Below are positions 21,423-24,572 of a stretch of 64,000 nt of DNA, one piece after another. The number at the start of each line of letters is the position of its first letter. The first letter of the stretch is position 1. Source of the DNA: Lentisphaera profundi. GTDB lineage: Bacteria > Verrucomicrobiota > Lentisphaeria > Lentisphaerales > Lentisphaeraceae. Location of the stretch: positions 2,232,001-2,296,000 of the forward strand of contig NZ_CP117811.1 of assembly GCF_028728065.1 (NCBI RefSeq), written 5' to 3'. The notes beneath the pieces were generated by a model. That model searched no databases. It was given only the letters and a program-made list of their open reading frames with translations, and was not told the origin of the DNA. The position numbers and the translations under genes were made by a program.

Positions 21423-22508
21423 TTATTTTTTACCCTTAACTATTGAGCTCGGATTTCTCTCTAAGTAGTCCATCAATCTACGTATGGTATCGAGAGTACG
21501 ATCAAAATTATTCAAACTATTTGAGGTGTCTTTACTTAAATCAACCAATGCTTTACCAATTTTACCTTCTCCCGATAATATCTTTTCAACTTGAGGTGTT
21601 AATGAAACTAAAGCATTTAAATTTTTCTCCACCATATCTAAAGCTACTGCTACTCCATCACTCATACGGTTAAAATCTTTTCTAATGAGATCAGATGTTT
21701 TAGTCGCACTCACCAAAGCTTTATTGAGCTCGACGCTATTGACGTCTAGATTCGCAAGAGTTTTCCTGAAACTTGTCGTCGTATCGCCAACTTTTGCTGC
21801 CACAACTTCTTTTTCCAGTACTTGTGTGAACTTATCTATGCGCTTTAATGATAAAGAAAGGTCTTTACTTAAAGTCAATAATTCTTCGCTAGCAAATTTA
21901 TCTAGACTCGTCATTGTTTTTTCTGCACTCGCCATCGCTTTTTCTGCATTTGCTCCAATTTGTTTAAAATCAATTCTCGCAACACCGTCTAGTATTTTTT
22001 CCACATCAACAACTAAATCTTCTAGTGATGAACGCAGTGCGGGAATATAGGTCTCGGTCACCTCGAAAGGGAGTTTGACCTTATTATCTCTTTTGGTATC
22101 GATATAATCTAGTTCAACATATTTCATACCGGTAATACCTGCATAATTTAGGCTTGCACGCATCCCTTTTTCTACGGACTCAATTATATAACCTTGAAAA
22201 CGTACTTGAACTTGATCTTCCGATAAATCTTTTATCTCGCTATCACTTACATTTCGTGGTACCGCAGTCATTGTCACCTTAACAAATTCATTCTCCCAAA
22301 GTTCGACACTTGTCACTCTACCAACGGTTACACCTTTCAACTTCACTGATGATCCTACCTCTAGGCCCTGAACACTACGATCAAAATATGTGACAAAATC
22401 AAAACTTTGACGGAACTGTTCTCGCAAGCCCAAATAGAATAATGCGCAGATAAAGAGCACTAAACCACTGAGTACAAATACGCCTAATTTAAAATGTTTA
22501 CTTTCCAT
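21423..22508 (-). CDS. mlaD: MlaD-family MCE protein (lipid transport)
   Basis: A 361-residue protein with an N-terminal signal-anchor helix (LGVFVLSGLVLFICALFYLG), one MCE domain (about 38-118; GSSVKLKGVTVGRVTSVELW) and a long helical tail. MCE proteins form periplasmic rings that carry phospholipids between the two membranes. The gene is the last of the operon after an ABC ATPase, permease and auxiliary lipoprotein. The helical tail is longer than that of E. coli MlaD and more like those of plastid or PqiB-type bridges. Confidence 0.88.
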   Translation of the reverse strand: MESKHFKLGVFVLSGLVLFICALFYLGLREQFRQSFDFVTYFDRSVQGLEVGSSVKLKGVTVGRVTSVELWENEFVKVTMTAVPRNVSDSEIKDLSEDQVQVRFQGYIIESVEKGMRASLNYAGITGMKYVELDYIDTKRDNKVKLPFEVTETYIPALRSSLEDLVVDVEKILDGVARIDFKQIGANAEKAMASAEKTMTSLDKFASEELLTLSKDLSLSLKRIDKFTQVLEKEVVAAKVGDTTTSFRKTLANLDVNSVELNKALVSATKTSDLIRKDFNRMSDGVAVALDMVEKNLNALVSLTPQVEKILSGEGKIGKALVDLSKDTSNSLNNFDRTLDTIRRLMDYLERNPSSIVKGKK

Positions 22509-22523
22509 CTTTTCATCTCCTCG

Positions 22524-23279
22524 TTAAGTCTGAACGGATTCACGTCTATTTAAAAAGTCGCGTACCCATTCATTTTTTGATTCATTTTTTAATTTTCGGG
22601 GATCCCCATCTTCAATAATCTGCTTGCTTTCTTTATCTAGCATGATTATTCGATCTGCGATAGAAAAAATACTTTCTAACTCATGGGTAACAATAACTAT
22701 TGTCGTCTTAAACTTTGCTCTTAACTTTAAGATCAAAGCATCTAAATTGGCTGCTGAAATAGGATCTAAACCTGCGGAAGGTTCGTCAAAAAATAATATA
22801 TCGGGATTGAGTGCCATTGCACGTGCAATTGCCGCGCGTTTTTTCATACCACCACTAATTTCTGCCGGGTAAAAAGTATTAAACTCGTCGAGCTCCACAA
22901 GTGCCAATTTCTCCATTGCACGCTCATGCATTTCCTCTTTGCTCATAGAGGTTACTTCTTCAAGAATCATCGTGATATTTTCTTCCAAAGTCAAAGAGCC
23001 AAATAATGCACCTGATTGATACATGACACCAAACTCTTTCATGATCTCTCTTTTACTTTCTGCTTCGGCATTAACGATACTCTTATCTTTAATAAAAATA
23101 TCTCCCGCCATGGGTTTATAGAGTCCGATCATGTGTTTTAAAAGAGTACTTTTCCCACAGCCAGACCCACCTAGAATTACAAAAATTTCTCCTTGATTGA
23201 TCTCAAAATCCAAGGATTCCATGATCACGCGTGCGCCATAGCCAATTTTTAATTTTTCTACTTTAATTACAGGATCCAT
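22524..23279 (-). CDS. mlaF: MlaF-type ABC transporter ATPase
   Basis: A 251-residue ABC ATPase. Walker A GGSGCGKST is at 37-45, the signature is ISGGMKKRAAIARA, Walker B is ILFFDEPSAGLDP, and the switch His is in VTHEL. MlaF energises phospholipid movement with MlaE. It starts 2 nt after the end of the permease reading frame and is followed 15 bp later by mlaD, so they form one operon. Confidence 0.92.
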   Translation of the reverse strand: MDPVIKVEKLKIGYGARVIMESLDFEINQGEIFVILGGSGCGKSTLLKHMIGLYKPMAGDIFIKDKSIVNAEAESKREIMKEFGVMYQSGALFGSLTLEENITMILEEVTSMSKEEMHERAMEKLALVELDEFNTFYPAEISGGMKKRAAIARAMALNPDILFFDEPSAGLDPISAANLDALILKLRAKFKTTIVIVTHELESIFSIADRIIMLDKESKQIIEDGDPRKLKNESKNEWVRDFLNRRESVQT

Positions 23280-23281
23280 AA

Positions 23282-23620
23282 CTACCTCAAATGCGTAAAA
23301 ATAACTGTCATTAACGTATCGGCAACAATAATCAAAAATATGCCTGAGACAACTGCAGAGGTAGCGGCTTTACCCACACCTTGAGCATCCGACGAGCTAT
23401 TCATCCCTCGATAACAACCCACAACAGAAATAATAATAGCAAAAGCAAAAGCTTTTGTTATACTCTCTAAAACATCAAAATAATGAATGACTTTTACGGT
23501 CTGATTCAAATAAGCCGCGAAGGGTAATTTAAGTTGAACGACACCTACAAAAAAACCGCCTAACACACCAAATAGATCACCAATCAATGTTAAAATGGGC
23601 ATCACTACCATCATCGCCAA
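23282..23620 (-). CDS. mlaE: MlaE permease, C-terminal part (frameshifted)
   Basis: The 112-residue C-terminal part of an MlaE-family permease, with membrane helices (ILTLIGDLFGVLGGFFVG, AFAFAIIISVVGCYRG, TSAVVSGIFLIIVADTLMTV) that carry the family's GxxxxG and DA-GVGKATTSAVV signatures. In the +1-corrected frame the coding sequence continues upstream as RFLIIPKLLAMM and joins the N-terminal part at a G7 tract (23644-23650). As it stands this fragment would have to start at an internal ATG, so it is probably half of one gene. Confidence 0.85.
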   Translation of the reverse strand: MAMMVVMPILTLIGDLFGVLGGFFVGVVQLKLPFAAYLNQTVKVIHYFDVLESITKAFAFAIIISVVGCYRGMNSSSDAQGVGKAATSAVVSGIFLIIVADTLMTVIFTHLR

Positions 23621-23634
23621 TAATTTTGGAATAA

Positions 23635-24075
23635 TTAAAAAGCGGGGGGGACGAAGCCCATCGTTGTTAAGGCATCAATTTCTTCATTCACTCGCATTGT
23701 GCCTAATTCAGCCGCAAATGCGGAACCTGCTCTTCCTGTTGCGATCATCGCAACCATAAGTGGTCCTAATTCTTTAACAATAGATAAACCCACTAAATTG
23801 GCTACGTATATTTCCGTCCCAAACTGTTTCATTTGAACCGCTGATTGAAAACCAAGAATCAAGCCCATTAAAAAACATATAAGCGCCACAATCCCTGTCG
23901 CTTCCCGTCCACAGCCATCCATGTAATAAAGCGTACTTCGCCATTTTATCTTATGCGGATTTTTTACAGAGAAGAAAAGTTCTTCGACTACTTCACCTAT
24001 AAAGCTAGTGATTTTTTTTGCTTCAACAAAAAAGTCGACAAAATTATCACCAAAACTGGAGACAAATTTCCTCAC
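23635..24075 (-). CDS. mlaE: MlaE permease, N-terminal part (frameshifted)
   Basis: The 146-residue N-terminal part of the same MlaE permease: an amphipathic start, a first helix (ATGIVALICFLMGLILGFQ) and the family motif ELGPLMVAMIATGRAGSAFA followed by MRVNEEIDALTTMGF. The frame then reads VPPAF and stops, where homologues continue with P-x-RFL. One extra C in the C7 run would restore the reading V-P-P-R-F-L-I-I-P. It begins in a 4-nt overlap with the upstream lipoprotein gene. Confidence 0.88.
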   Translation of the reverse strand: MRKFVSSFGDNFVDFFVEAKKITSFIGEVVEELFFSVKNPHKIKWRSTLYYMDGCGREATGIVALICFLMGLILGFQSAVQMKQFGTEIYVANLVGLSIVKELGPLMVAMIATGRAGSAFAAELGTMRVNEEIDALTTMGFVPPAF

Positions 24076-24572
24076 TTATTTGTTTGAAGATTTTTATCTA
24101 ATTGTTTGAAAATATCTTGTACGGCTAAGCTCATCGATTGGGCTAAAGAGTCACCATCTAATGCCCTTATAGCCTGTACACTTTTAATTCTAAAGAATCT
24201 TTGCTTGTCTTTAGTTTCAAAAAGAAAATCTATACTAATTCGTGACTCCATTGATTCCTGATCAAAAACAAATTCATTCAGCTCTCCCCGAAGTTCATTT
24301 ACACCTAGAGGAAAATGATTTTTAAGCTCTGATTCTATGAGGCGATGTGGACTATCTTGCCATCTCTCAAATTCTCTTAATTCTAAATGAGATCCTTTTT
24401 TCAAATTCATTCTTTGATGAATTTGAGCCCCCGCCCGTATTTCTCGAACATTCAACGAGGCCTGCCCCTCTCCTTCAAGATTTAAAGTATAATACTGAAC
24501 AGGGACTGACTTACCCCCTATACAAGAAATAAAGAAGACAACTGAAAGAAAACCGATTATATAATTGCGCAT
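24072..24572 (-). CDS. ABC transport auxiliary lipoprotein (PqiC-like)
   Basis: A 166-residue lipoprotein with signal GFLSVVFFISC (Cys17). The sequence VQYYTLNLEG, then RWQDSPHRLIESEL and a central beta-rich body match the ABC-type transport auxiliary (DUF330/PqiC) fold found beside MCE operons. It is the first gene of the Mla operon and its stop overlaps the permease start (ATGA). It probably anchors the MCE bridge at the outer membrane. MlaB and MlaC homologues are not visible in the window. Confidence 0.75.
   Translation of the reverse strand: MRNYIIGFLSVVFFISCIGGKSVPVQYYTLNLEGEGQASLNVREIRAGAQIHQRMNLKKGSHLELREFERWQDSPHRLIESELKNHFPLGVNELRGELNEFVFDQESMESRISIDFLFETKDKQRFFRIKSVQAIRALDGDSLAQSMSLAVQDIFKQLDKNLQTNK

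Follow-up and report, generated by a model that had tools for sequence, protein, structure and literature searches.

A one-base frame break at a C7 run in the only MlaE-family permease gene of Lentisphaera profundi: probable assembly undercall, with slippage in a mutL-disrupted genome as the main rival

Does the lipid-transport permease gene mlaE of Lentisphaera profundi truly end halfway along, at a run of seven cytosines, or does it end there only in the assembly? The window analysed, a stretch of 64,000 nucleotides, lies on contig 1 of a two-contig Lentisphaera genome of 5.46 Mb, whose closest named relative in the collections is L. marina IMCC 11369 (92% identity over the ATPase of the operon). 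The original prediction, made from the letters of the window, held that the MlaE frame is broken at the run, and offered sequencing error, phase variation and programmed frameshifting as explanations. Sequencing error proves to be the best supported of the three. A fourth possibility, real but unprogrammed slippage in a genome whose mutL carries an insertion sequence (IS), was absent from that list.

The broken permease gene and its operon

The frame break itself is confirmed. On the minus strand mlaE opens at a GTG at 24075 and reaches a stop codon at 23635-23637, a few codons past a C7 homopolymer (23650-23644 in the direction of reading; G7 at 23644-23650 on the plus strand) in the context GTC CCC CCC GCT TTT TAA. 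This 5' piece (23635..24075, 146 aa) ends in MGFVPPAF, just where the frame had been said to stop, and matches columns 3-96 of the 212 in PF02405 with an E-value of 1.3e-32. The remainder of the permease lies in the -1 frame and extends to 23282 (3' piece, 23282..23631, with an ORF from a TTG listed at 23282-23620). The -1 reading gives VPPRFLIIPK, as had been foreseen, and continues into a match to columns 106-212 of 212 (E 8.5e-30). As assembled, therefore, no single frame yields a full-length match to the MlaE family (PF02405/TIGR00056); columns 3-96 and 106-212 fall in separate frames. A profile search of the whole 5.46 Mb returned just these two pieces for PF02405, each covering about half of the 212 columns. 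Judged by these matches both belong to the MlaE family, and the homology is clear. The position of the C7 at the break is not chance, because the probability that a G/C run of at least 7 lies about 15 nt or less from a randomly chosen point is about 4e-4 (some 59 tracts in 5.46 Mb).

The operon, all on the minus strand, consists of a lipoprotein-like ORF, mlaE in its two pieces, an MlaF-like ATPase and an MCE protein. The first of these (24072..24572, 166 aa) lies upstream of mlaE, overlaps its start, and has no Pfam or NCBIfam match. Downstream of the permease, the MlaF-like ABC ATPase (22524..23279, 251 aa, 92% identical to that of L. marina) and the MCE-domain protein (21423..22508, 361 aa, MlaD/PqiB-like, PF02470) are both intact. 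Permease, ATPase and MCE protein thus share one operon, as in MlaFED/MCE-type ABC lipid transporters (TIGR00056, PF02405), and both permease halves match that family; unlike in those systems, the permease here occupies two frames and the upstream partner is a lipoprotein-like ORF. Among the ORFs next to mlaE, nothing resembling mlaC or mlaB was recognised. The rest of the Mla operon had been described as intact; the other genes are indeed whole, but the operon, with its single MCE protein, is Mla-like and falls short of a complete Mla operon. About 29 kb from mlaE, at 2223196-2225514 of contig 1, a PqiB/LetB-like protein of 886 aa with several MCE domains represents a second MCE lipid-transport system.

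In both congeners compared, mlaE is one open frame, of 275 codons in L. marina and 267 codons in the congener G002. The sequence at the site of the break reads ...GFVPARFLIVPK... in L. marina and ...GFVPPRFLIIPK... in G002; the congener reading frame predicts one base more, and therefore the C7 is one base short by homology. The C run itself has no counterpart at this site in either congener (CCTGCGAGG in L. marina, CCGCCGCGT in G002). Against L. marina, dN is 0.078 for both halves of mlaE, compared with 0.056 for mlaF and 0.097 for mlaD. The two halves show no decay, and constraint on them is undiminished; since both still evolve slowly, any real break would be recent. With the L. marina stretch around mlaE as reference, 46 orthologues were usable, and mlaE was the sole frame break among them.

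Breaks of the same kind elsewhere in the genome

Frame breaks were sought by ORF-pair scoring and by run-centred codon scoring over some 1.18 Mb of contiguous DNA, together with all G/C tracts of at least 7 and 30 G6 loci, roughly 1.4 Mb overall. There are 59 G/C tracts of at least 7 genome-wide; about 27 coding tracts are in frame, and four break a gene. Besides mlaE, these four comprise a GH43 hydrolase (L121:1998-2004), a DUF7133/HEAT gene (L133:1998-2004) and a LamG gene (L138:1998-2004), all at G7/C7, and each of the four has 7 bases where homology requires 8. The GH43 gene matches its family over columns 46-149 and then, in the other frame, over columns 152-286; in its L. marina orthologue, at 95% identity, this tract counts 8 Gs and the frame is kept. 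In the congeners, each DUF7133 orthologue reads as one frame of about 1,100 aa. Within the 1.18 Mb stretch, two further breaks occur at shorter runs. One is in a gene at about 2097855 of contig 1 (in L163), with C5 where the frame needs C6, which we take to be DUF1549-like, a label based on its sequence and not on a Pfam search. The other, again C5 for C6, is in one of 13 near-identical IS copies (contig 2, 275813-277405). Candidates flagged by scoring did not all hold. L110 was left out as a shifted gene, since a 260-aa ORF runs through it; L159 is a natural gene overlap and was rejected; L129, at a C8, is undecidable and was not counted as a break.

All six homopolymer breaks are -1 and all six are at G/C runs (binomial two-sided p 0.03 for sign). 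At length 8, breaks affect 4 of 7 G/C runs vs none of 47 A/T runs (p 1e-4). More broadly, in-frame A/T runs amount to 249 with 7 bases, 47 with 8 and one with 9, and no break at A/T runs was confirmed; hits at A/T runs were judged by eye as gene boundaries, some staying undecided (e.g. a T8 at about 2368718 of contig 1). Coding G6 tracts as called are in frame in 51 of 51 cases. Twelve recent IS copies (about 19 kb; sampled copies read directly, the rest inferred from bit scores) contain no private SNP and one C6 contraction. Among genes broken at G/C runs, mlaE is thus not special. Separately, two sulfatase genes are frameshifted away from long homopolymers, at L108:1311-2039 and at about 2528559 of contig 1; these are ordinary pseudogenes or isolated errors.

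In the two congeners, about 30 coding G/C tracts gave one break, which is in L. marina and opposite in sign to those of the window genome. It lies in a gene that, from its sequence, is presumably to be named ksgA (rsmA-like) and whose frame is lost at a C8 (L212:1001-1008) where homology calls for C7, an insertion. The difference in tract breaks between the window genome and the congeners is not significant (p 0.27).

Consensus error or slippage in the cell

The reading we favour, at a probability of about 0.6, is an assembly undercall. The true run would be eight Cs, mlaE would be intact in the organism, and the assembly would be one base short. We infer that consensus calling with G/C homopolymer undercalling of the PacBio type, and not the cell, made the contractions, because published PacBio consensus errors have this same character, deletions only and at G/C only. 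At homopolymers of these two bases such a consensus reportedly "tends to miss a G or C" (PMC4849082). Thermus thermophilus NAR1 gave 2,927 deletions and a single insertion, essentially confined to G/C runs of 5-6 (PMC7694296). The six events found here are likewise one-base contractions, confined to G/C runs, in unrelated genes, and they split ORFs that are whole in relatives; the original suggestion of a sequencing error gains from at least five other G/C runs that break frames in the same -1 direction as mlaE, while A/T runs of 7-9 do not. Unlike the published cases, the events here are far rarer (about six in roughly 1.4 Mb vs the 2,927 of NAR1) and fall mostly at runs of 8. Other observations weigh against an undercall. 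The G6 tracts are clean, frame breaks are fewer overall than an unpolished long-read assembly would lead one to expect, and the congeners offer only their single break of opposite sign and the non-significant difference between genomes. Caution is due above all because mutL is IS-disrupted in this same genome, so that true slippage is plausible.

The mutL gene is interrupted at 2378672-2382203 of contig 2 (L251:2673-6204) by a 1,594-bp element that encodes a DDE transposase and is bounded by 14-bp terminal inverted repeats (GATGCACTCCGACA) and a 6-bp target-site duplication, TAGCTG. The element is present in 13 near-identical copies in the genome. When the empty site is rejoined, a full MutL of 644 aa is read, otherwise intact. 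As it stands, MutL_C is matched over columns 2-87 of 142, vs 2-135 in both congeners, in which MutL is whole. Genes of the mutS type are present as open frames of 837 and 809 aa. The strain is predicted from these sequences to be mismatch-repair-deficient, and it may be a mutator because an IS sits inside its mutL.

The main rival, and a serious one, is accordingly that the slippage is genuine and the strain a natural mutator, although we think this distinctly less probable than an undercall. Loss of mutL to the IS would leave -1 errors at G/C runs uncorrected, giving back-mutable frameshifts in mlaE, the GH43, DUF7133, LamG and DUF1549-like genes, and one transposase copy. Elsewhere, -1 errors in G/C runs are known to increase when mismatch repair is lost. 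In mutS-deficient Pseudomonas aeruginosa, mucA mutations are restricted to -1 changes in G5/C6 runs (PMC2781719), and the nine hypermutable coding runs listed for mutS-deficient lines of Vibrio cholerae are without exception poly-C/G tracts of 7-11 (PMC5854121); the present case resembles these in having G/C runs of 5-9 in coding genes, alongside its disrupted mutL. The same V. cholerae lines, however, show no deletion bias (PMC5854121), and mismatch-repair-deficient P. fluorescens shows an insertion bias (PMC4316635), yet none of the six events here is +1. V. fischeri mutS lines have hotspots at A/T runs, yet among the roughly 300 coding A/T runs of 7-9 bases no break was confirmed. A mismatch-repair mutator should accumulate indels of both signs and more substitutions than indels, yet the events found are all -1 and the 12 recent IS copies carry no private SNP; with their one C6 contraction, these copies fit error better than a mutator. 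The bolder account, in which a transposon in mutL has abolished mismatch repair in a natural marine Lentisphaera, so that its G/C runs slip freely and turn unrelated genes off and potentially on again, its only MlaE permease among them, is slightly less probable still. The value of 0.6 for an undercall and the lower weight given to slippage are judgements, not computed posteriors.

The remaining explanations fare much worse. Phase variation, in which the C run would be an evolved contingency tract toggling the MlaE transporter by slippage, can draw on a C7/C8 run within the coding sequence of an envelope gene, as at known poly-G/C phase-variable loci, and on a shift that is reversible in principle. 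A contingency locus would be expected to keep its tract among relatives or to show length variants; neither congener has a tract at the site. G/C runs of at least 7 are also not in excess in this genome (81 overlapping matches vs 106 and 139 in the congeners), and the genes hit, a transposase among them, are unrelated and have no common surface-variation theme. For these reasons an evolved switch is unlikely, indeed very improbable, and this part of the original prediction is not supported. Full-length MlaE could in form arise from programmed -1 ribosomal frameshifting, as had been proposed, or from transcriptional slippage at C_CCC_CCC, since that heptamer lies in the zero frame, followed by GCT TTT TAA, and a -1 slip gives the family sequence. 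We regard it as the least probable reading of all: the congeners are single-frame and need no shift, so that a two-frame layout is not conserved; the identical type of break occurs in unrelated genes; and the RNA downstream of the slip site has no more stable a fold than shuffled sequences (z -0.72 and 0.21). Neither phase variation nor programmed frameshifting has positive support. An ordinary loss of function, with mlaE a true pseudogene fixed without any mutator, seems about as improbable as an evolved switch. The second MCE system could make such a loss tolerable, and the two sulfatases show that genes in this genome can be frameshifted away from long homopolymers, but the remainder of the operon is intact and dN is low in both halves of mlaE.

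Consequences for the organism and for finished genomes

The case matches known G/C homopolymer undercalling, with slippage in a mismatch-repair mutator as the known biological alternative; neither is a new kind of system. If the undercall reading is right, split genes at G/C runs in this and similar finished genomes should not be mistaken for switches or pseudogenes. Should the break be real, the 146-aa fragment, which ends about halfway through the family profile, would be unlikely to form a working permease, and the second MCE protein of 886 aa might partly compensate for the loss of MlaE. The organism would then be a naturally occurring mutL::IS mutator from a phylum in which little genetics has been done, and would likely have lost one of its two MCE lipid-transport systems.
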